This document shows, one piece after another, positions 3,516-13,503 of a stretch of DNA of 64,000 nucleotides. Positions within the stretch are counted from its first letter, which is position 1. Each line of letters opens with the position of its first letter. The notes under the pieces are model-generated. The model saw only the letters and a program-made list of their open reading frames with translations, searched no databases and had not been told where the DNA came from. Source of the stretch: Pantoea sp. CCBC3-3-1 (GTDB taxonomy: Bacteria; Pseudomonadota; Gammaproteobacteria; Enterobacterales; Enterobacteriaceae); NCBI RefSeq assembly GCF_007981265.1, contig NZ_CP034363.1, positions 1,922,001-1,986,000 of the forward strand, given 5' to 3'. The translations under genes were made by a program, and so were the position numbers.

Positions 3516-4193
3516 ATGTTAACAAGGGATTTCTTATTAAAAGCGGATTGTAAGACGGCTTTTGGTGCAATCGAGGAATCGCTGTTATGGACCTGCGAAC
3601 AGCGTGCTGCGTCGCTGAGCGCCACGCTTTCCTGTCGGCCTAATCACAGCCCGGTATGGATTTTCGGCTATGGTTCGCTAATGTGGAACCCTATATTCGA
3701 GTCCGATGAGGTGGCTGAAGGAACCTTAAAGGGCTGGCATCGGGCTTTCTGCCTGCGGCTTACGGCGGGACGGGGCACGGCTCAACAGCCCGGAAGAATG
3801 CTGGCACTGAAAGAGGGCGGCGAAACGACCGGGCTGGCTTTTCGCCTGCCGGAAGAAAAACTCCGTGAGGAGCTGGAGCTGCTGTGGAAGCGCGAAATGG
3901 TCACAGGCTGCTATCTCCCTACCTGGCGTGAGCTGGAGCTTTCAGACGGGCGTAGCGTGACGGCGCTGGCTTTCGTTATGGATCCGCGCCATGCGCTTTA
4001 CGAGGCCGATTCCTGCCCAAAAACCATTGCGCCGCTGATTGCTCAAGCCAGCGGTCCACTCGGCACTAACGCACAGTATCTTTACTCGCTGGAACAGGAG
4101 TTGAAGACGCGCGGTCTGTATGATGATTGCCTGACCGATCTGGTGCAGCGCGTGCGTGAATTACAGCAATGCCACGACCCTCTGGTCGGCTAA
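3516..4193 (+). CDS. chaC: Glutathione-specific gamma-glutamylcyclotransferase ChaC
   Basis: ChaC enzymes cleave glutathione to 5-oxoproline and Cys-Gly in the cytosol. The 225 residues align along the full length of E. coli ChaC (231 residues). The substrate loop GYGSLMW is at 51-57, followed by the conserved WHRAFCLRLTAGRGT at about 74-88. A Glu of LPEE near 113-114 corresponds to the family's catalytic Glu, and GPLGTNAQYL follows near the C-terminus. AAGGGGGG precedes the ATG. E. coli ychN, which follows chaC there, is absent here. Confidence 0.95.
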   Translation: MLTRDFLLKADCKTAFGAIEESLLWTCEQRAASLSATLSCRPNHSPVWIFGYGSLMWNPIFESDEVAEGTLKGWHRAFCLRLTAGRGTAQQPGRMLALKEGGETTGLAFRLPEEKLREELELLWKREMVTGCYLPTWRELELSDGRSVTALAFVMDPRHALYEADSCPKTIAPLIAQASGPLGTNAQYLYSLEQELKTRGLYDDCLTDLVQRVRELQQCHDPLVG

Positions 4194-4199
4194 GCCGGC

Positions 4200-5636
4200 T
4201 CAGCTTCCAGGATTGATCAGCCAGGTGCCTGCCTTGTTAATCGTCAGGCTCTGGCGGTGAACCGCGTTCGCAGAATGCACTTCAATATTGTAGTTACCGG
4301 ATGCCAGGTTCAGTGAGGCATAGCCGCTGTTGTTCGGCTTGACCTCGATCGGCGTGCCGTTGAGCAGCACGGTTTCGCCGCTGGCAAGCCGCAGGTAGAC
4401 GGTAGCCATCATCGGTTTAGTATTCACTGCCGCTCCACCCGAGACCGTGCGGGTCGGCGCTGTTTCCGATCCGGCTATCGCAGGTTGCTGGGTATCGGCA
4501 GAGGTGTCTTCCCGGCTGAGAGAGATGGCCAGCGCAACCGCAGCCAGCACAGCGACGCCGCCGAGGGCGATAAGCGGTTTAGACAGTCGGGTTTTGACGC
4601 CGGGTATTTCCCCGCCTGCTACCGGCGGAGGGGTATAGCTGACCGGCTCCGGCTCAGGGACCGGTTCAGGTTCCTGCTGCGCCTCTGGCACCTCTTCGGC
4701 CACAGCCGGTATGCTGGTCACCAACTCTTCTACAGAGCTTACGGGCAGGGCAATAAGCGCCGCTAATTCATCGATAGACTGCGGACGGTCCTGAGGTTTC
4801 ATTTCCAGCGCGCAGTCAATGGCGTTGAGCAGCGACAGCGAGAATCCTTCCGGGCGCAGCTGGGCGAGCGGCTGGTAGCGATCTTCAATACAGCGCACCA
4901 CGCTTACCGGTGGTGGGCTTCCGGTAACCAGCGTATGCAATACCGCGCCGAGGGCGTAGATATCCGTCCACGGCCCCTGGTCAATATCACTTTCTTCGCT
5001 GTACTGCTCAATAGGCGCATAGCCGGGTTTCAGCATAATCTCCGTTTCGTCGGAGAGGTTACCAATCGTTTTACGCGCTGAACCGAAATCCAGCAGCACC
5101 GGCAGCTGATTTTCCTGGATCTGAATGTTATCCAGCGAGATATCGCGATGCAGGTAGCCGCCACGGTGGATGGTATCAATCGCGCCAAAAAGGGGCGGAA
5201 GCAGCTGGCGGATCCATTCATCGGTGATCCTTTCCGGGTGGCCTAACTGCCACTCTTTCAGGGTCATACCGCTGTAATAGAGCGTGCCCATATAGGCCGT
5301 GCCGTTCTCCTCCCAGAACCGCAGCACGTGCAGCAAGCCCGGATGGTTGAAGCGGGCCAGCAGGCGGGCTTCCTGAATAAAGCTGCTAAGTCCTGCTGAA
5401 AACAGTTTATGATAGCGCTCGCCGCGCAGCACGATAGTCAGTTGTTCATCGCGGGAGGCGAGTGAAACCGGCAAATACTCTTTAATGGCGATGGTACGTT
5501 CAAGCAGGTGGTCCCAGGCACGATAAACAATGCCGAAGCCGCCACCGCCAATGACTTCTTTAATTTCAAATTCGTTAAAACGGTGGCCAGCCGGAAGGGC
5601 GTTGGGCACGTTCTTGACATTATCGTTTGCCGACAT
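4200..5636 (-). CDS. ppkA: T6SS-type membrane Ser/Thr protein kinase (PpkA-like)
   Basis: A eukaryotic-type kinase of the T6SS threonine-phosphorylation pathway, whose usual target is the FHA protein. From the ATG at 5636 (478 residues) all main motifs are present: glycine loop GGGGFG at 30-35, lysine in AIKEY (K52), HRDISLDN at 163-170, DFG at 183-185 and an APIE-type activation segment. A Pro/Glu-rich linker (about 310-335) leads to one membrane helix at about 354-374. The last 100 residues are outside the cytoplasm and PEGA-like (VYLRLASGETVLLNG, NYNIEVHS). A GTG three codons upstream is possible, but AGAGAG is better spaced for the ATG. It is last in the leftward block. Confidence 0.86.
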   Translation of the reverse strand: MSANDNVKNVPNALPAGHRFNEFEIKEVIGGGGFGIVYRAWDHLLERTIAIKEYLPVSLASRDEQLTIVLRGERYHKLFSAGLSSFIQEARLLARFNHPGLLHVLRFWEENGTAYMGTLYYSGMTLKEWQLGHPERITDEWIRQLLPPLFGAIDTIHRGGYLHRDISLDNIQIQENQLPVLLDFGSARKTIGNLSDETEIMLKPGYAPIEQYSEESDIDQGPWTDIYALGAVLHTLVTGSPPPVSVVRCIEDRYQPLAQLRPEGFSLSLLNAIDCALEMKPQDRPQSIDELAALIALPVSSVEELVTSIPAVAEEVPEAQQEPEPVPEPEPVSYTPPPVAGGEIPGVKTRLSKPLIALGGVAVLAAVALAISLSREDTSADTQQPAIAGSETAPTRTVSGGAAVNTKPMMATVYLRLASGETVLLNGTPIEVKPNNSGYASLNLASGNYNIEVHSANAVHRQSLTINKAGTWLINPGS

Positions 5637-5690
5637 AGTAAACACTCTCTGAATGCCAACTTCTCTGCTGCTCCCATCCGGGAGAGCCGG

Positions 5691-6638
5691 TCAGTTAACA
5701 GTGCGCCAGGCGCCAATAGCCGGATCGGCCAGGTCTGCATGCAGGTCATCCACCAGCAGCACATTAATTTTTACTTTTGAATCGACGACTTTGCTCCAGA
5801 CCTGACGCAGAGCATCTACGCGAGCCTTCAGGACGGCAGGGTCCGCCGCCTGGCTTTTGTCCATTTTTACCAGCAGTGCGCCATCAAATGACCAGACGTG
5901 CAAAGCAGGATTAAACGTCAGCACCAGCCAGCTGTTGGGGGCCGTCTTTTTACTGACGACCAGCCGTTGATTATTCGCCGCGACAACGTCCAGTTCTCCC
6001 GAAGCAGGATGGATATTGCGTAACGGAAATCCCTGGTAAAACTGGACGTCAACGGGCTGATCTTTCCCGTTAGAGGAAAGAGTCAACTGACTTTTCCCCT
6101 CCAGCCATCCTTCGGTAGAACAGCTGAGGTGACGATCGTCAGGGATAAACAGCGACTGGCCTTTTTCGTCCCACCAGGTGCGAAAATGACAGCCACCGGG
6201 CAGATCGAAATGCTGCAATGGTGCGCTATTGGCTGGCTGTGACAAATCCAGCGGTTCCGCATTGCTGGCATTCGCCGCCGTTGTCCCGTCCGCGATAACG
6301 ATTGGGCGCCAGTTCTGTTCTTTGGCTGCGGTACCGGCAGCCAGCACCGTTCCGGCAGCGTTGGTCATTTGCCATGGGAGTTCGGTAAGTTTGCCGCACT
6401 GGTTATTTAACAGCTTGCCGACACGCGGCAGAAAACTGGTCAGGGTGCTGGATTCTTTGCTTTTACCGGAAACGAGGCGCAAGTGGATAGTCTCCTGACA
6501 CCAGTCTCGCGGCGCATTACTTTCAACGTTGTCAATGAACACCTCCAGCGCCAGGCTTGGGGAATATACCACGCGGTAATCCTCAGCCTGAGCGGCAGTT
6601 GCAATCAACAAAGCAATAGCTGGCAACCCGTATTTCAT
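5691..6638 (-). CDS. Secreted protein of unknown function in the T6SS-type block
   Basis: 315 residues with a clear signal peptide (MKYGLPAIALLIATAAQA, cleavage about residue 18), so the mature protein is probably periplasmic. Four cysteines are visible in the mature part (in DWCQET, NNQCGKL, GGCHFRTWW and HLSCSTEG), which suggests two disulfides. No domain is recognised. AAGGAAC precedes the ATG. It lies between the PP2C phosphatase (15-bp gap) and the kinase (54-bp gap), so it is cotranscribed with both. Inference: it may act with the extracytoplasmic domain of the kinase as a signal-sensing or envelope component. The function is not known. Confidence 0.75.
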   Translation of the reverse strand: MKYGLPAIALLIATAAQAEDYRVVYSPSLALEVFIDNVESNAPRDWCQETIHLRLVSGKSKESSTLTSFLPRVGKLLNNQCGKLTELPWQMTNAAGTVLAAGTAAKEQNWRPIVIADGTTAANASNAEPLDLSQPANSAPLQHFDLPGGCHFRTWWDEKGQSLFIPDDRHLSCSTEGWLEGKSQLTLSSNGKDQPVDVQFYQGFPLRNIHPASGELDVVAANNQRLVVSKKTAPNSWLVLTFNPALHVWSFDGALLVKMDKSQAADPAVLKARVDALRQVWSKVVDSKVKINVLLVDDLHADLADPAIGAWRTVN

Positions 6639-6652
6639 AGTGTTCCTTGGTG

Positions 6653-7429
6653 TTAATCACGCGTCGGCAGGAAGCGTCCTGAGTCCGCTACGGATTGTAA
6701 GAGAGTGGTTTCCTGTGGCGAGCCAATCCAGACGGCTACGGCACTCAGGTTATCCTTCTGCTCGCTACGGTTGATGGCTTCCTGCATCAGCGCCAGCCAC
6801 TCATGAGGCGAGCTGACCATACGCAGCGCCTGTTGCATCTCTTCCGGCGTCAGGCTGCACCAGAAACCATCGGTACAGACTAAAAAGGCATCGCCATCTT
6901 CCAGCGGCATAACCTCACTGTAACTCACCGGCAATGTACCGCCCGCACCCAAAGCATTATAGAGTAAGTTGCTGTTAATGCCGGAATTATCTACACCAGC
7001 ATCCTTTAACTGCTGCGCCAGGCTATGATCGCGCGTGACCGCATGAATATACCCCCGGCGAAAGTGGTAAATCCTGCTGTCACCGGCATGCGCCCACCAT
7101 GCACGCTGAGAATCACGGTCAATAAATACCGCCGCCAGCGTAGTGCTCATCCGATCAAAATTCAGAATTTTACTCTGTGCCTGGCGAATCGCCTGCTCGG
7201 CCTTATCGATCCATTCCGCGGTATCTGCTGGCTGAATAGGCTTATCGACCATCAGCTCAGCCAGCAACGTATCGCGGGCGATTCTCGCTGCCGTTTCACC
7301 GCCTGCCGTGCCCGCTACCCCGTCACAGACTAAAAAACAGGCGCAGCGTTCGCCTATCAACGCGCCCGTTTCATCCTGATTACTTTCCCGGGCACCCGTT
7401 TGTGAGGTCAATGCATAGTTAATGTTCAT
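6653..7429 (-). CDS. pppA: PP2C-family protein phosphatase (PppA-like)
   Basis: A 258-residue metal-dependent Ser/Thr phosphatase that would reverse the partner kinase's phosphorylation of the FHA protein. PP2C metal-site motifs are intact: ESNQDE at 15-20, CDGVAGTAGGE at 35-45, GDSRIY in the centre, CTDGFW near 180 and KDNLSAVAVW near the C-terminus. No membrane segment is seen. The ATG is preceded by GGAAAAG and overlaps the 3' end of the FHA gene by 11 bp, so the two are probably translationally coupled. In Pseudomonas aeruginosa the PpkA/PppA pair switches the H1-T6SS on and off. Confidence 0.9.
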   Translation of the reverse strand: MNINYALTSQTGARESNQDETGALIGERCACFLVCDGVAGTAGGETAARIARDTLLAELMVDKPIQPADTAEWIDKAEQAIRQAQSKILNFDRMSTTLAAVFIDRDSQRAWWAHAGDSRIYHFRRGYIHAVTRDHSLAQQLKDAGVDNSGINSNLLYNALGAGGTLPVSYSEVMPLEDGDAFLVCTDGFWCSLTPEEMQQALRMVSSPHEWLALMQEAINRSEQKDNLSAVAVWIGSPQETTLLQSVADSGRFLPTRD

Positions 7430-8576
7430 TCTTTTCCGGTTTGAGCTGCGAGTCTTTATACTGATTCACTTCCATATCATAGGCTTGCAGAAATGCGTCG
7501 CCGAAGAGGGTATGGAAATCGTCCTCAATTTCGCCAGACGTGTTCTGGTAGTGACGCAAAAAATAGTCCCACAGGGCGGCTTTTTTTACCGCGCTTAACC
7601 CTATCCGTGGAACGTTGCCATCACGACGGGCGTAATCTTCCAGCCGTTGCGGATTGAAAGATTGCAGCATGGCGGCAATAATCGCGCGGATCCCGGCAAT
7701 CATCCCCAACTGATGCGCCTGCAAATCCACTAACGCATCACGCACTGCCTGCTCAGGCGGCATAAAGCCTGGCATCTGGCTCTGATATATCTGCATCAGG
7801 ACCGTCTTACCTGAAGGCAATATTTTGAACGGGTTGTTCGCTTCGTTCAGGATCATCGTCATTTCTGCCTTCACGCCGCGTTTCAGGATTGAACGTGATG
7901 AGAGCAGGGCGACGGTTCCCTGAGAAAAGAGGCTGAGCATTTTCCCCGTCGTGCGCATTTGGTCTTCTGTCAGCTGTGGCCTGCCCGCGCCATTATCCAG
8001 CCCCATGCCTTCCAGCAGAGCGGCGAGCAAGCGCTGCTCGTTGCCTTCATGTACAGCATTCTCAGCATGCGGCAGATCGCTGCGAACCGGGTCAATATCC
8101 AGCCGCGCATCGTTTTGCCGAACCTGACGAACGGCGGGCTGCTCGGGAGCAGGCACCACGACCGGTATCTGCTCGTTCAGGATACCCAGCGGATCGTTGG
8201 GCAATGTCTGGTCATGGCTGAATAATGCAAGGGGATCCACGTCGCTGAAAGCGGTATCCTGCTGGCGGTTGGGATCGCTTATCGTAATTTGATAATCGCC
8301 AATGCCCAGTATGTCGCCATGATGCAGAACAATTTGCCTGCCGCGATCGAGAGGGGCCTGATTATGCACCACCGCGATCACGCTACCGTGATTGGTCAGA
8401 CGACACTCGCCGTTGCTGGCGATCTGGACGACTGCCTGCAAGCGAGAAATGGCGCGCTCGGTATCCGGTAAAACCAGATCGTTATCAACGCTACGGCCTA
8501 TGGTGCCGCCTGGCGGCATAAAATCACAGGCGGTAACGGGCGCCTCGGTTCTGCTTTCAACAATGGTAAATCGCAT
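7419..8576 (-). CDS. tagH: T6SS-type FHA-domain protein (TagH/Fha)
   Basis: Phosphothreonine-binding scaffold of T6SS post-translational control. From the ATG at 8576 (385 residues) the first 100 residues form an FHA domain: the GGTIGRSVDNDLVLPD strand, ISRLQA, and NHGSVIAVVHNQAPL. A variable linker of about 90 residues follows, then the alpha-helical type VI FHA-associated C-terminal domain (about 185-375) with MGLDNGAG and FNPQRLE. AGGA sits 7 bp before this ATG; the in-frame codon at 8609 has no such site. It overlaps pppA. Confidence 0.9.
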   Translation of the reverse strand: MRFTIVESRTEAPVTACDFMPPGGTIGRSVDNDLVLPDTERAISRLQAVVQIASNGECRLTNHGSVIAVVHNQAPLDRGRQIVLHHGDILGIGDYQITISDPNRQQDTAFSDVDPLALFSHDQTLPNDPLGILNEQIPVVVPAPEQPAVRQVRQNDARLDIDPVRSDLPHAENAVHEGNEQRLLAALLEGMGLDNGAGRPQLTEDQMRTTGKMLSLFSQGTVALLSSRSILKRGVKAEMTMILNEANNPFKILPSGKTVLMQIYQSQMPGFMPPEQAVRDALVDLQAHQLGMIAGIRAIIAAMLQSFNPQRLEDYARRDGNVPRIGLSAVKKAALWDYFLRHYQNTSGEIEDDFHTLFGDAFLQAYDMEVNQYKDSQLKPEKNEH

Positions 8577-8615
8577 GCGCTTTTCCTGAAGCCAAAGCCA
8601 ACGGGCCAAATAACT

Positions 8616-9314
8616 CTATTCGAACATGGGTGGATAGAGTCCATGCCGACCCGGCTGTGCTACAGCGGCCGGATCGAATAACTGTGAGAATAGTTGTGCG
8701 GTAAGGTTGCCGCTGTGTTTATGGCTGGCCAGGGGATAACCATCGCTTTGATTTGTCCACCAGTAGCTGGTATAGCGCATGGGGTCAAAGCGGGTCGCCA
8801 CCTCGTGCCATGCCAGCGTGCAAGGCAGATCCTGATAGCCAATCACATCCATAATATCTGAACGGCCGGTATCGGGCAGCGACAGCGGCGGCAGCGTCAG
8901 TAGCCTTTGTTCAAGCCGCTCGGGGGTCGATTGCTGGCTGACGGCCTGATGCAGCGTTTCCCCCAACGTCTGAAACCAGTCGCCAGACACTGCCAGCTGC
9001 GCCGGATGCCAGAGACTGACCGGCACGCTTTGCAGCGCCAGCAAAGGCCAGGTTCGGCCTACGCGATCGCGCGAAGGGAGCAGACAGCCAATTTGTACAC
9101 GCTGTACACCGAGCGTAGCAGGGACGGCAAAATTCCACACCGGTGCGCGGCTAAAAAGCTCACCGTCACCCTCGCTCTGGTGATACCAGAGTGATAAACC
9201 CTGCTGAAACCAGTTAGACCAACTGGCGACAATCGCTTCCGGTAACCGACGCTGTAAAAAATCGCCGGTGCCGGGTAATTTCCCGTACCAACCCAGCATA
9301 TTTTTATCTGGCAT
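8616..9314 (-). CDS. tagF: T6SS-associated protein TagF
   Basis: TagF-family (ImpM/DUF2094) proteins repress T6SS assembly post-translationally in species that have the PpkA pathway. The N-terminal signature GWYGKLPGTGDFLQRRLP is complete, and IGCLLPSRDRVGRTWPL is typical of the core. The 232 residues are normal length for stand-alone TagF. Three in-frame starts cluster here (9323 GTG, 9320 ATG, 9314 ATG); 9314 gives the best spacing to GGAAGG. It begins 17 bp after tssM ends, so it belongs to the operon. Confidence 0.9.
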   Translation of the reverse strand: MPDKNMLGWYGKLPGTGDFLQRRLPEAIVASWSNWFQQGLSLWYHQSEGDGELFSRAPVWNFAVPATLGVQRVQIGCLLPSRDRVGRTWPLLALQSVPVSLWHPAQLAVSGDWFQTLGETLHQAVSQQSTPERLEQRLLTLPPLSLPDTGRSDIMDVIGYQDLPCTLAWHEVATRFDPMRYTSYWWTNQSDGYPLASHKHSGNLTAQLFSQLFDPAAVAQPGRHGLYPPMFE

Positions 9315-9331
9315 AGTCATCACCTTCCCGG

Positions 9332-11443
9332 CTAGTGAGGGGGGATAGCCTGAACCGGCGGAGCAATATTTGCCGCAGTGCTGCCAGACGGCCGTCCAGG
9401 ACTCTCAAGATTAAACGCCAATTTTCTCATCACCAGCGCATTATCACGCGCGAACGGTGAAGTCTGGATCTGCCGATCCAGTAACTGGCTCAGATGCCAG
9501 TCAAGCTGCTGAAGCTGACGCGTCGTCACGTTGGCAGGCAACGTACGCTGCAAATTTTGCATTACCCAGCCGCGTAAAAATTCGCCATCGTAGCTGCGGG
9601 GCTGATACAGCATTTGATAAGCGCGCAGTGCATTGCGGCTGAATTCGCTATCGTCGCCTTTATCATTACGTAAAGTTTGCGTGATGTTCTGTGCCACGCG
9701 CGGCAGCAGCAACGTTTTTAACGCGTTCTGATAAAAGCCCTGTGCGGCGGCGTTAATCTGATCGCCACGGTACAGGCCGCCGCGCATGCTCAAAGGCGGC
9801 TCGTCAAGCCGGAAGCTACTGCTTTGCGGCAGGGCCACCAGGCTATTTAAGAAGGGTAGCAGATCCAGGATATCTCCGTGGTTATTGCCGATCAGTTGCT
9901 GAGCCTGACGGTCCACCGGGGGAAGCCGTGCTTCAACCTGTTGCAGATACTGCTGATTTTTATAGTAACTGGTGGCCCAAAGCAGGGTGGCGAGGATCAG
10001 CGCCAGGCCAAGCGAAGCGTAGCCCGTCCAGTGCAGCAGGCGATTGCGGTGTTCCCATGACCGATCGCTGCCCGCCAGCTCGCTCTCCTGAAAGATCAGA
10101 TCGCTCATCAGCGCACGAATAAAGTAGCTCTGGCCTTTATTGGCAGGAATGGGCGCAATGCGGTTGACGCTGTTCCAGCTGGCGATAGGATGGCTGGAAG
10201 CCTGCGGCAGCTGAAGTTTGCGGGTCAGCTCTCCCATAATGCGATCGAAAGGCAGACCTTCCTGCGTGCCGCTGGTGAAAAACAGCCCGCGCGGCGCCCA
10301 GGGTATTTCACCCTCTTTCTCTGCGAAGACAATATCCAGATATTCCGCCAGTAGCGGACGCAGTGAAGCAAATTCCTGTGGGAAGAGAAAACAGTCGGCG
10401 CGCTGCGTCAGGTCGCTTTCCTTCGCCATTCTGCCAGCCAGCCCGGTTTGCAAACGCAGCGTCATGTCGTTGAACTGTTCAGTAAACAGTGACGTTAACG
10501 ATTGTCCAGCAGGTCGCTCGGCGCCCCATGGGAAACCAAAGCCCCAAATACGGTCGCGCTGCGTTTTATCCAGCGTACCGTAATAGCTCATAAAACCTTT
10601 CAGTAAATCGGTCTTGGTCACCATGATGTAGACCGGGAAGTGGATCCCGGTTTGCTGGTGCAGCTCCGCCATGCGGGTACGCAACGCCTGAGCCTGAAAA
10701 CGACGAGCCTCGGCGGAGTCGCTTAACAGATCCGCGACGCTGATCGCCATAATCACGCCGTTAATCGGCTGGCGCGTCCGGTAGCGCTTAAGCAGATTAA
10801 TAAAGGTCTGCCATTCGCTGGCATCTCTTGCCCGCTGGCTTTCCTGAAGCGTATAGCGTCCTGCGGTATCCAGCAGCACCGCTTCCTGAGTAAACCACCA
10901 GTCGCAATGGCGAGTACCGCCCACGCCCCGCAAGGCCGTTCTGCCGATGCTTTCGCCCAGAGGAAACTCAAGACCTGAGTTGATCAGCGCGGTAGTTTTT
11001 CCCGCTCCCGGTGCACCAACAATGATGTACCACGGCAGCTGATAGAGATATTGCGCATTGAAACGCTGAAGCCAGCCGCGTTTTTTCTTCTGCTGGGGGC
11101 CGGTGAAGTGGGTTTTCTTTAGCAGCGAAGCCGCTTCGCTGAAGAGCGCACCGAGCAGCTCTTCGGCGGCGGCCTGTTCGCTGTGATCGGCGCTGGAACG
11201 CTGCATATTGCTTAACAGCTTGCTGTTAAACCAGGCGCGGTAAAGCTGAGGGATCAGCTGGAAAAGGATCCACAGGAAATAGCACAGACCAATCGCTATC
11301 TGGCGATTAAGAGGGCTTTCCAGCCAGTGAGTATTATGGAACGACAGCTGCGGGCCGATCATCCAGATCAGCGCCGAAAGGGCGGTAATCCCTAAAAAGC
11401 TCCACAGCAGTCGGCTGAAAAAAAGCATAAACAAAGAAGGCAT
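9332..11443 (-). CDS. tssM: T6SS TssM/IcmF homologue, short form lacking most of the periplasmic domain
   Basis: TssM is the large inner-membrane protein of the T6SS membrane complex. Here it has only 703 residues, where full-length TssM usually has about 1100-1200. Two N-terminal helices (about 5-30, 46-71), a P-loop GAPGAGKT at 143-150, DTAGR at 192-196, a TKTD base motif at 277-280 and a third helix at about 470-493 are intact. Only about 210 residues remain beyond helix 3. The product ends in a Pro-rich tail after RKLAFNLES, and tagF starts 17 bp later, so the missing end is not next door in another frame. The ATG overlaps the tssL stop by one base. Confidence 0.92.
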   Translation of the reverse strand: MPSLFMLFFSRLLWSFLGITALSALIWMIGPQLSFHNTHWLESPLNRQIAIGLCYFLWILFQLIPQLYRAWFNSKLLSNMQRSSADHSEQAAAEELLGALFSEAASLLKKTHFTGPQQKKKRGWLQRFNAQYLYQLPWYIIVGAPGAGKTTALINSGLEFPLGESIGRTALRGVGGTRHCDWWFTQEAVLLDTAGRYTLQESQRARDASEWQTFINLLKRYRTRQPINGVIMAISVADLLSDSAEARRFQAQALRTRMAELHQQTGIHFPVYIMVTKTDLLKGFMSYYGTLDKTQRDRIWGFGFPWGAERPAGQSLTSLFTEQFNDMTLRLQTGLAGRMAKESDLTQRADCFLFPQEFASLRPLLAEYLDIVFAEKEGEIPWAPRGLFFTSGTQEGLPFDRIMGELTRKLQLPQASSHPIASWNSVNRIAPIPANKGQSYFIRALMSDLIFQESELAGSDRSWEHRNRLLHWTGYASLGLALILATLLWATSYYKNQQYLQQVEARLPPVDRQAQQLIGNNHGDILDLLPFLNSLVALPQSSSFRLDEPPLSMRGGLYRGDQINAAAQGFYQNALKTLLLPRVAQNITQTLRNDKGDDSEFSRNALRAYQMLYQPRSYDGEFLRGWVMQNLQRTLPANVTTRQLQQLDWHLSQLLDRQIQTSPFARDNALVMRKLAFNLESPGRPSGSTAANIAPPVQAIPPH

Positions 11444-12660
11444 CAGGATTTTCTCGCCTGGCTGGTTTTCACTTCTGGCGCTGGGAACAGAACAATTTCG
11501 ACCCGGCGGTTTTGCGCCCGGTTTTCGTCGCTATCATTAGGCAGCAACGGGCTGCTGTCGCCACGGCCTTCGCTGCGCAGTAAATGTTCCGGTTCCAGCA
11601 TCTGCTGGCGCATCTGCGCGCTAATCGAGCGCGCCTGCGCCAGGGAATATTCATAATTTGAGGCAAAGTGCGTTGAATGCACAGGCCGGTTATCGGTGTA
11701 AACGCTGATTAAAATCGTGCCTTTGATATTGTCCATCGCGGCAGAGACACGGGTGATAATCGCCCGGCCTTCCGGCGTAAGATCGCTGCCTGAAGGGCTA
11801 AACAGTTTGTCGGCGGCGATGATCACTTTGCTGCCATTAGTCCCGTCTGCCACGTCCAGCTGGCGAGCAGTAATCAAATCGTCCAGCCGCTGGCGCAGAT
11901 CTAATAGCGCCTGGCTCGAACTGTTGCGGGCAATTTCGTTCTGCGGCAGTGGCGTCTCCCAGATAGCCCGCAACAGCGGTTCAGCCGCATTGCCTAAACG
12001 CCAGTTGAGGCCTGAATAAATCATGCTGGCGATAAAAGCCGTCAGCGCAATACAGGCCCAGAGCGGTACCGGAGGACGCCATCGCGAATCACGACCGACC
12101 GGCTCCAGCGGTTGAGGCTCTGGCTGCGGCGGTAATTCACCTCGCGTATCGTTGATTAACTGCGCAAGGCGATTTCTTACCGCATCGCGTTGCAGCCTGC
12201 CTTGCTCAACCGCACGATAGCGTCCTTCATAGCCCAGCAGCAGGCAGTAGTGGATGACTTCCAGCAGCCATAAATGTTGCGCAGGCGTTTGAGAAATACG
12301 CGACAGCAGTTGAAACACTTTTTCGCCGCCCCAGCTCTCATTATGAAAAGTCACCAGCAAGCCGTTACCGGACCAGACGCCACGCGTTCCCCAGGGCGTT
12401 TGGGCCGCCGCTTCGTCCAGCACGCTGCAAAGGCAGTAGCGGGCGCCAATGATCATATCGAAAGGCAAACCGATGTTTTTGCTGCGCGCTTCAAACTGAC
12501 GAATCTCATCAACCAGCTGCTGGCGCAGGCCGGCAGGGTCATCATGCGTTGCCGCCAGGCGGATCTGTACGATTGCATTCAGCAACGGCGCTGCTGCTGC
12601 AAGTAATGGGTTTTCCTGACCGCTAAAAGTGCGGGTGTCAGCAGGGTGTTCCGGGGTCAT
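11443..12660 (-). CDS. tssL: T6SS TssL/DotU with C-terminal OmpA-type peptidoglycan-binding domain
   Basis: TssL is the second inner-membrane component of the T6SS envelope complex. Residues 15-170 form the DotU cytoplasmic bundle, with ARYCLCSVLDEA at 73-84 and HNESWGGEKVF at 106-116. One helix spans about 198-218, followed by a periplasmic OmpA-like domain (about 275-398) with the signature EGRGDSSPLLPND and NRAQNRRVEIVL, predicted to bind peptidoglycan. The 405 residues fit evolved, peptidoglycan-anchored TssL proteins. The gene shares one base with tssM. No strong ribosome site is seen before the ATG. Confidence 0.93.
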   Translation of the reverse strand: MTPEHPADTRTFSGQENPLLAAAAPLLNAIVQIRLAATHDDPAGLRQQLVDEIRQFEARSKNIGLPFDMIIGARYCLCSVLDEAAAQTPWGTRGVWSGNGLLVTFHNESWGGEKVFQLLSRISQTPAQHLWLLEVIHYCLLLGYEGRYRAVEQGRLQRDAVRNRLAQLINDTRGELPPQPEPQPLEPVGRDSRWRPPVPLWACIALTAFIASMIYSGLNWRLGNAAEPLLRAIWETPLPQNEIARNSSSQALLDLRQRLDDLITARQLDVADGTNGSKVIIAADKLFSPSGSDLTPEGRAIITRVSAAMDNIKGTILISVYTDNRPVHSTHFASNYEYSLAQARSISAQMRQQMLEPEHLLRSEGRGDSSPLLPNDSDENRAQNRRVEIVLFPAPEVKTSQARKS

Positions 12661-12761
12661 CAGGCTTTACTGTCTCAGCTGTTTGGCACCTGCAGCGCAG
12701 GCGCTATCCAATCTTATCAGACGGTGATACAGGGCCTTCCATGGCGCTGAGAATATCATGT

Positions 12762-13250
12762 CTATTCCAGAATCCAGGTGGCGGTATCGTTGTTACGGCA
12801 AGCCTTACTTTGCCCGCCAACGTCGACGCAAACTTGTTTGGCTTTGCGTGGGCGAGGGCGATCGCTGCGCAGCGTAGCGTCATACAGGTCGGTTTTGACG
12901 CCCGCTTTGTACGGCACGTAACCAATAAGCTCTTGCTGATCAGGTTCGGCTACGGCTAGCCAGTGATTTTCCACTTCGCCCAGCACGGTGAACGGCTTGC
13001 TGTTTTCCAGATAGCGCACCACCTTGCTGCCAAAGTCCGGGCCGCTCATCACCGACGCATTGTATAAAGCCCGGTAGGTTTCATTAACTGGCGTAAAGGT
13101 TTTTGGTGCATGAACGGCATGGCGATGCGTCAGCTTCACGCCATCGACTTCAGAAGTGACGAGCGTGTCGTCCGTCATCGGAGGAAGAGGAGCCTTGCAT
13201 GCAGACAGCGTCAGCACAGCCAGCAGGGTTAACGCGATGCTTATTTTCAC
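12762..13250 (-). CDS. SH3-like-domain lipoprotein upstream of tssL
   Basis: From the GTG at 13250 the product is 162 residues and begins with a lipoprotein signal, MKISIALTLLAVLTLSAC, whose Cys18 would be lipidated. Residues about 65-125 resemble a bacterial SH3 fold (ALYNASVMSGPD, FTVLGEVENHWLAV, ELIGYVPY). AGGA lies 5 bp before the GTG, which decides this start over ATG codons at 13271 and upstream. Two cysteines near the C-terminus (QVCVD, SKACRN) may pair. It lies 101 bp before tssL in the same direction. Its position suggests a T6SS-block component; the role is not known. Confidence 0.78.
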   Translation of the reverse strand: MKISIALTLLAVLTLSACKAPLPPMTDDTLVTSEVDGVKLTHRHAVHAPKTFTPVNETYRALYNASVMSGPDFGSKVVRYLENSKPFTVLGEVENHWLAVAEPDQQELIGYVPYKAGVKTDLYDATLRSDRPRPRKAKQVCVDVGGQSKACRNNDTATWILE

Positions 13251-13503
13251 AGCGATCCTCGTGAATATCATCAGTGAGTAGTAGTGTTCACAAACCCGTC
13301 TCACACGCTTCAGTCGTCTGGGCAGAAAAAAGGCCAGTCGGCTGAAAATTATTCTGTTTTACATAAAGATAAATCTGTATTCAGTTTACATGACACTTTT
13401 GAGAATGGGAACAATTGCAGTGCCCGGCCTGACATGTTATTGCAGCCAGACCAGGGCAATCCTTACTTTTAAAGAAAGCGATGTCAATTTGATAAGTTCA
13501 TTA

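Follow-up and report, generated by a model that had tools for sequence, protein, structure and literature searches.

The locus occupies positions 4200-13304 on the minus strand of the window, by which we mean the whole 64 kb stretch of Pantoea DNA that was analysed, and consists of eight open genes, tagV, tssL, tssM (C-terminally truncated), tagF, fha, pppA, rtkS and ppkA (Table 1). The window holds only tssL and part of tssM out of the 13 core genes tssA-M, which falls short of a complete T6SS, and the locus has no genes for a sheath, tube or baseplate, nor for TssJ, TssK or ClpV. A sequence-only reading of the same DNA had described a block of tssL, tssM, tagF, tagH, pppA, a secreted unknown and ppkA together with a lipoprotein gene, the remaining tss genes being absent, and the gene calls agreed with this. 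Motif alignments bore out its statement that all frames are open with intact kinase, phosphatase, FHA and P-loop motifs. By sequence likeness, its lipoprotein and secreted protein are TagV and RtkS, and the locus therefore encodes a full Serratia-type threonine-phosphorylation circuit and a cut-down inner-membrane pair. The module that was thought to keep only an anchor and a phospho-switch is real, but it comprises an entire circuit of sensor, kinase, phosphatase, Fha and TagF, and its tssM is truncated.

Table 1. Genes of the locus and the flanking chaC gene (window positions)
Gene	Position	Strand	Features
tagV	12762..13304	-	outer-membrane-type lipoprotein (lipobox Cys 36) with SH3b domain; likely start ATG 13271
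tssL	11443..12660	-	DotU domain, transmembrane segment near 198-216, OmpA-like domain; peptidoglycan-motif Arg replaced
tssM	9332..11443	-	truncated past ~residue 700; N-terminal membrane segments and P-loop present
tagF	8616..9323	-	TagF_N
fha/tagH	7419..8609	-	FHA domain and T6SS_FHA_C, short linker; likely start ATG 8576
pppA	6653..7429	-	PP2C-type phosphatase, metal-site Asp residues all present
rtkS	5691..6638	-	homologue of periplasmic PpkA activator
ppkA	4200..5645	-	Ser/Thr kinase domain; single strong transmembrane segment; periplasmic domain of RtkS-binding type; likely start ATG 5636
chaC	3516..4193	+	convergent flanking gene, outside the system; marks the locus in other genera

Small incomplete T6SS loci have been described in Pantoea and Erwinia, and this locus is itself already published. 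It corresponds to 'T6SS-2' of De Maayer 2011, described as eight syntenic genes including icmF and dotU with most core genes absent (PMC3235180), and to 'PA T6SS-3' of P. ananatis of Shyntum 2014, for which nine genes were counted (PMC3942780); here too the icmF, dotU, FHA, kinase and phosphatase genes are syntenic and no other core genes are present. According to the available parts of these surveys, T6SS-2 is conserved in Pantoea and E. billingiae with four genes left in E. amylovora and E. pyrifoliae, and both papers regarded the locus as a partial, potentially non-functional T6SS (PMC3235180, PMC3942780).

In a profile search the tssM product matched TIGR03348 with 628 bits over positions 1-632, which is the N-terminal IcmF-related region, and across the genus this match stops by position 655 of 1168. 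TssM is 670-713 aa long with a conserved P-loop in 34/34 genus members. The IcmF_C region (PF06744), which we take to be the TssJ-binding half, is missing, as is most of the periplasmic part; PF06744 matched only the two other TssM proteins of the genome. The truncated TssM matched no solved structure by sequence at E 0.001. In-frame stops in the tssM of five congeners (G203, G205, G217, G221, G224) were considered as gene breakage and were counted instead as shorter C-termini, because they fall beyond the profile-covered part or at its last residues. The Asp and Arg of the OmpA-like motif serve peptidoglycan binding, and in TssL of the genus the Asp was found in 35/35 and the Arg was replaced in 33/35. 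In a wider sample the Arg was present in 3 of 12 orphans and in all 22 TssL proteins from T6SSs.

Genus alignments of the regulators revealed an invariant Gly loop, Lys, HRD and DFG in the PpkA kinase (30/30; 30 of 31 ppkA genes were scored, that of G220 having failed the coverage filter), the PppA metal Asp residues in 31/31, the FHA G-R-S and S-R motifs in 33/33, the four Cys of RtkS in 31/31, and the lipobox Cys, Trp 115 and Cys 159/169 of TagV in 31/31. Judged by these motifs the kinase, phosphatase and FHA protein look active, as the threonine-phosphorylation pathway requires. In that pathway PpkA phosphorylates a single Thr of Fha; here Thr 251 of Fha was conserved in 36/36 and Thr 232 in 35/36, and the published Thr438 has no certain counterpart. 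The module RtkS matches the solved RtkS in fold and sequence, and the periplasmic domain of PpkA, which matches 9k1u_D (E 9.4e-16), is a putative RtkS-binding domain by its likeness to the solved complex 9k1u. TagV matched NF041850 at E 5.3e-57 with 192 bits, below the curated 300-bit cut-off that only 9/392 genomes pass, and shares 61% identity with the T6SS-1 TagV. In a set of 392 genomes TagV and RtkS were found together in 103, with one exception each way (phi 0.987).

The module was present in 35/37 congeners, with a tssM frame that is open and similarly short in 34 of the 35 carriers. Relatives were taken as the best 80 of 141 matches, and 49 of 52 named orphan-type loci have all eight genes; the exceptions are L195, which ends at a contig edge, L198, with no tagV match, and L196 (Candidatus Pantoea haifensis), with shortened frames. 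Two loci that end before tssM at contig edges (L187, L194) stand outside the 52, and L155 and L192 are both from E. aphidicola. The locus of P. ananatis LMG 2665 (L185) has the same gene order. The missing tss genes had been considered as possible members of the same operon in close relatives, and no other core T6SS gene was seen in the operon in the 34 other genus loci or in the 52 named orphan-type loci. An hcp gene lies beyond chaC, on its far side, in three loci from two genomes (G225, G226).

A search for complete T6SS clusters elsewhere in the genome, as had been advised, located two, at about C1:653-680 kb (read as far as 680 kb) and at 181-201 kb, both of which include TssC, TssF, TssJ and a full-length TssM. 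The sequence-only reading had suggested that the block could supply regulators to such a complete T6SS. On a reading of this kind the module might act in trans on a T6SS of its own cell, with its kinase or phosphatase, TagF or truncated TssM exchanging with those of T6SS-1 or another T6SS and tuning or inhibiting its firing, and with the core-less TssM as a dominant-negative brake. T6SS-1 TssM is indeed present in 24 of the 35 genus carriers and some TssC in 34, the module proteins are 50-61% identical to their T6SS-1 counterparts (RtkS, 36%), and the parts kept are those which, in the available text on the RtkS-PpkA-PppA-Fha-TagF pathway of Serratia marcescens, act on membrane-complex assembly (PMC6082577). 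All but one of the 11 species that lack T6SS-1 have another TssC, so that a role for another T6SS can be envisaged there. Against such a role, the module is intact in these 11 species and equally constrained (omega 0.085-0.143, 10 species for ppkA, vs 0.084-0.162 in 17 species with T6SS-1), its ancestry lies with Serratia-type T6SS and not with the resident T6SS-1, and it is found in G215, the sole TssC-less carrier among the 35, which also has no TssF. We consider this explanation unlikely, though worth keeping in view.

Outside the genus, G019 and G246 have neither TssC nor TssF; C. arupi (G233) and G321, listed as T6SS-free on the absence of TssC, were dropped when TssF was found, as was G396. 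A split system, in which the module lends TssL and TssM to a machine that has none of its own, was raised because the species without other TssM matches, except G215, had a third TssC class. It was rejected since this class, in G203, G205, G210 and G219, belongs to Klebsiella-type T6SS clusters in which TssK, a TssL-like gene and ClpV are already present, and the genomes have their own distant TssM of ~1150-1200 aa, found by a full-length profile.

The 2011 and 2014 surveys would suggest a slowly decaying, functionless T6SS remnant. One clade (G199, G213, G216, G229) has lost tagV, rtkS, pppA and ppkA, two of its members also lack fha, and the tssM of G216 is frameshifted; omega in this clade was.172 for tssL,.198 for tagF and.151 for tssM (three members and G212, the frameshifted G216 tssM being left out of all tssM sets). 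The short frames of Candidatus Pantoea haifensis and the replaced TssL Arg point the same way. The relaxed selection or frameshifts that had been named as evidence for decay were seen in this clade. Elsewhere module omega was 0.08-0.16 vs 0.06-0.08 for the flanking chaC, catalytic residues are invariant, and tssM and the eight-gene set are kept as described above. Omega was calculated from 17 of the 20 T6SS-1 carriers outside the reduced clade (16 for chaC), omitting G119, G202 (a near-copy of G230) and G200 (10% contamination). Module omega was 1.4 to 2.3 times that of T6SS-1 counterparts (tssL.129 vs.057, tssM.103 vs.075, tagF.125 vs.085). The earlier argument against simple decay holds, and decay, already disfavoured, is in our judgement improbable.

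A first TssM tree with a very distant outgroup placed the module with Erwinia T6SS-1 (97/99). Because the branches leading to this outgroup measured 5.5 and 3.5 changes per site, the trees were rebuilt with intermediate T6SSs, which reversed the result. The module was then sister to Serratia-type T6SS in 6/6 single-gene trees with G099 as the root (SH-like support 0.947-1.0) and lay beside it in the concatenated tree and the PpkA tree (both 100/100); in the rtkS tree the orphan clade itself had a support of only 0.608. Neo-functionalisation of a partial T6SS-1 duplicate, the origin that De Maayer et al. 2011 drew, in the text available, from an IcmF tree and 52% average identity (PMC3235180) and with which our first TssM tree agreed, is very improbable given that, with intermediate outgroups, PpkA and each of the six genes fall with Serratia-type T6SS and that the locus adjoins chaC, like a reduced Serratia-related locus in Chimaeribacter.

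Operons of tagV, rtkS and ppkA without a T6SS were found in seven other enterobacterial genera among the matches listed, which reach E about 4e-128. The absence of T6SS genes nearby was determined from 15 contexts that were read and from G076, and ten further loci were judged by coordinates alone. All of the three-gene-operon kinases read (16/16) are without catalytic residues, and omega for these operons was about 0.1. A DNA search with one operon found none in E. coli genomes. That a smaller version, whose kinase lacks catalytic residues, is kept under selection suggests an independent function for the sensor. The envelope-sensing role offered by the sequence-only reading is favoured by these operons, the function staying putative. 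To our knowledge pseudokinase receptors have rarely been documented in bacteria, and no report of T6SS-free rtkS or tagV operons or of a PpkA pseudokinase was found in the open-licence literature.

On balance we lean towards the locus being the remnant of an old Serratia-type T6SS beside chaC whose regulatory and inner-membrane part was kept for a non-secretory function, as an envelope sensor and phospho-switch. Its evolutionary part, that the module is selected, is not a duplicate of T6SS-1 and has kept its catalytic motifs, is demonstrated computationally. The signal chain we infer from the Serratia marcescens work, and the non-secretory output is putative. The injection machine would have been lost earlier than the split of the Erwiniaceae genera. 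Outer-membrane TagV and periplasmic RtkS would sense the state of the envelope, RtkS would stabilise or activate PpkA through its periplasmic domain, and Fha would be phosphorylated by PpkA and dephosphorylated by PppA. Clustering of the TssL-TssM(delta-C) inner-membrane pair would be restrained by TagF and promoted by phospho-Fha, and this pair would be unable to join TssJ or build a T6SS periplasmic core. We have to admit that hcp just past chaC in G225 and G226, omega above that of T6SS-1 counterparts and four species with half the genes lost count against this explanation.

More tentatively, we propose that TagV-RtkS-PpkA is a self-contained envelope sensor used by T6SSs which became detached from secretion. 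The plant-associated Erwiniaceae would keep it together with Fha, PppA, TagF and the TssL-TssM(delta-C) platform, its kinase looking active, and in the seven other genera it would have shrunk to the three-gene operon, PpkA being a conserved transmembrane pseudokinase that retains an RtkS-binding type domain. TagV would act by way of RtkS-PpkA, and this would account for the failure to find a TagV contact with TssL or TssM; how TagV promotes T6SS firing without such a contact becomes testable, with RtkS-PpkA as the predicted route. If true, T6SS regulators are more than weapon switches and can outlast the weapon across genera of one bacterial family, and one branch of them has turned into a pseudokinase receptor.

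Compared with known systems, the available text of the T6SS-2 and PA T6SS-3 papers does not name TagV or RtkS, and neither a truncated TssM nor any test of selection is mentioned there (PMC3235180, PMC3942780). T6SS-2 was derived from T6SS-1 in 2011 (PMC3235180, as far as available), whereas our trees place the locus with Serratia-type T6SS, and this counts against the origin published for a locus common to Erwinia and Pantoea. With the TssJLM membrane complex the module shares TssL and the P-loop-bearing N-terminal half of TssM, but it is without TssJ, its TssM is without IcmF_C and its TssL peptidoglycan motif is mostly altered. It shares with the S. marcescens threonine-phosphorylation pathway, as the accessible text describes it, all five regulators, motifs included, and its RtkS and the periplasmic domain of its PpkA match 9k1u; unlike the S. 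marcescens T6SS, it is without injection-machine genes and its TssM is without the periplasmic C-terminal half (PMC6082577). The lipobox, SH3b-type match, conserved Trp and Cys pair are those of the TagV accessory protein, which the part of the source available describes inside T6SS clusters (PMC7614798), whereas here it also stands beside RtkS in T6SS-free operons.

The orphan locus is real, conserved and under selection. The locus itself has already been published (as T6SS-2 or PA T6SS-3); new here, as far as the literature searched goes, are the identities of TagV and RtkS within it, the common truncation of TssM, an origin other than duplication, the coupling of TagV with RtkS and a set of pseudokinase operons. 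Named loci were retrieved with PpkA, and 52 of the 80 (the best 80 of 141 relatives) were of the orphan type, defined by a tssM frame below 800 aa; by record title most belong to Erwinia, Pantoea, Mixta and Winslowiella. All eight genes were present in 49 of the 52, and 48 of these 49 kept a common gene order on a single strand, convergent chaC lying no more than 1.5 kb away. The sequence-only reading had described a module lacking its secretion machine, and this description stands: no other core T6SS gene was found in the orphan operon of the 52 named loci or of 34 other loci of the source genome's genus. At three loci, which belong to two genomes (G225, G226), an hcp gene lies beyond chaC, on the far side from the module.

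The orphan TssM has 703 residues and its match to the TssM profile stops at position 632 of 1168; by profile search the IcmF_C domain is confined to the other two TssM proteins of the source genome. The half absent here contains the TssJ-binding and core-forming part. The short TssM is common to 35 of 37 genomes of the genus, with the frame open in 34 of the 35 carriers (trimmed lengths 670-713 aa) and split by a frameshift in one, G216; among the named loci, the 49 complete ones have tssM frames of 608 to 749 aa. The OmpA-like motif Arg of TssL, kept in 22/22 T6SS TssL, was replaced in 33 of 35 orphans of the genus and retained by 3 of 12 in a wider sample. The source genome's third T6SS cluster, of Klebsiella type and outside the window, has whole tssB and tssC, then TssK cut to ~177 aa, a TagL/OmpA remnant, Hcp and a VgrG end; from its sequence it looks damaged.

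Omega was obtained from a codon model in 17 species with T6SS-1, another T6SS of the genus, and in 11 without it. Divergence this deep brings synonymous sites close to saturation, so the values serve for comparison rather than as exact figures. T6SS-1 counterparts were more constrained. Within the genus the catalytic motifs of the module enzymes were invariant.

Omega of module genes, flanking chaC and T6SS-1 counterparts
Gene	17 species with T6SS-1	11 species without T6SS-1	T6SS-1 counterpart	Reduced clade
tagV	.084	.085		
tssL	.129	.123	.057	.172
tssM	.103	.090	.075 (N-half)	.151 (G212 as fourth sequence)
tagF	.125	.108	.085	.198
fha	.113	.137		
pppA	.130	.113		
rtkS	.162	.143		
ppkA	.122	.097 (n=10)		
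chaC	.079	.059		

Relaxed selection or frameshifts in relatives, raised earlier as a point against the reading, do occur in one reduced clade of four related genomes (G199, G213, G216, G229), with omega.151-.198 and the G216 frameshift; in the 17 and 11 species omega was.084-.162. All four members have lost the genes tagV, rtkS, pppA and ppkA, and fha is missing as well from two. With the sensor-kinase half lost, tssL and tagF remain open in 4/4 and tssM in 3/4. The loss resembles the reduction described for E. amylovora and relatives in the excerpted text of De Maayer et al. 2011 (PMC3235180). In Candidatus Pantoea haifensis tagV and tssL are half-length and fha and ppkA shortened, and its locus seems to be decaying.

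The chief rival reading is crosstalk between the module and a resident T6SS. The 11 species were classed as lacking T6SS-1 because no full-length T6SS-1-type TssM was found in them; another TssC occurs in 10, which would leave a partner for crosstalk, and G215 alone has none, neither TssC nor TssF being found there.

In the family sample of 392 genomes RtkS was found by profile search in 104 and TagV in 104, with 103 shared (phi 0.987, versus 0.455 for RtkS and TssC; 131 of the 231 genomes with TssC are without RtkS). RtkS occurred without TagV only in G350, a genome 73% complete, and TagV without RtkS only in G174, by a match of 22 residues (E 9.6e-4). The two genes are distant within T6SS clusters (~16 kb in G170) and remain paired where other T6SS genes are gone. 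According to the excerpted TagV paper (PMC7614798), the S. marcescens protein promotes T6SS firing, and contact with TssL or TssM was not found. The co-inheritance of TagV and RtkS suggests that TagV may take RtkS-PpkA as its route.

Operons of tagV-rtkS-ppkA without surrounding T6SS genes were read at 16 loci in seven genera (g77, g72, g140, g66, g122, g20, g42), and tagV-fha-rtkS-ppkA operons, again without T6SS genes around, at three (G043, G099, G246). Another ten three-gene loci in the seven genera, taken from coordinates alone, bring the RtkS places of stand-alone type to 26; TagV adjoins RtkS in all 26, and chaC lies ~25-77 kb off in the 19 with chaC on the same contig. In the 16 loci read, PpkA has lost the VAIK Lys and catalytic Asn (16/16) and the DFG Asp (14/16; the other two read DVA), and the Gly loop is degraded in all 15 aligned kinases. 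In the midpoint-rooted PpkA tree a branch with 100/100 support separates these 15 from the remaining kinases. TagV is present in 15/15 loci, RtkS keeps its four Cys in 15/15, and omega was.107 for the pseudokinase domain and.111 for RtkS. One pseudokinase, L259, was compared with solved structures and retains an RtkS-binding type domain (E 1.3e-14). In fha-bearing loci the PpkA catalytic Lys, Asp and Asn are kept (30/30 in the genus), with intact motifs in Chimaeribacter californicus and G043 and HLD and DPG variants in G099 and G246; the exception is G017, with intact kinase motifs and no fha in its locus. Several of the three-gene operons are followed by genes for a trehalase and a TonB receptor, and an Escherichia albertii plasmid carries an RtkS relative 57% identical to a stand-alone RtkS.

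Coordinates of features outside the module
Feature	Locus or genome	Coordinates
hcp beyond chaC	L095	158-628
hcp beyond chaC	L096	131-601
hcp beyond chaC	L152	12711-13181
Klebsiella-type T6SS cluster	L118/L119 (source genome)	C1:3503307-3515136
TagV in T6SS cluster	G170	C1:1346689
RtkS in T6SS cluster	G170	1363152
tagV-rtkS-ppkA, pseudokinase PpkA	L247-L260, L262, L052	
tagV-tssJ-rtkS-tagJ-ppkA	L265 (G017)	4687-9812
RtkS relative, E. albertii plasmid	NZ_CP117576.1	32334-33263
Reduced locus, C. californicus	L208	5575-11434

De Maayer et al., in the excerpted text (PMC3235180), give T6SS-1 as the source of the orphan locus, and an initial TssM tree, whose outgroup was very distant, gave the same answer. 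Single-gene trees of tssL, tssM, tagF, fha, pppA and rtkS, rooted on G099 in the context of 23 T6SS clusters (22 for tssL), placed the orphan clade beside Serratia-type T6SSs in 6/6 (SH-like support 0.947-1.0), as did the concatenated and PpkA trees (both 100/100), and all of these argue against T6SS-1. At the same chaC-chaA site C. californicus has a reduced locus of tagV, a Tai4-like amidase-immunity gene (score just under the Pfam cut-off), fha, pppA, rtkS and ppkA, without tssL, tssM and tagF, and its PpkA clusters with Serratia. We infer that the ancestor was probably a complete Serratia-type T6SS near chaC, reduced before the Erwiniaceae radiated.

In S. marcescens, according to the excerpted text of PMC6082577, RtkS binds and stabilises PpkA, which phosphorylates one Fha Thr; PppA undoes this, and TagF keeps the membrane complex from assembling until phospho-Fha lifts the block. 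RtkS, PpkA, Fha, PppA and TagF, with their motifs, all lie here in one selected operon, and by analogy the RtkS-PpkA-Fha/PppA-TagF chain would act on the TssL-TssM(delta-C) pair. Since this pair would be unable to build a secretion channel, the outcome may be a signal-dependent membrane cluster instead of secretion.
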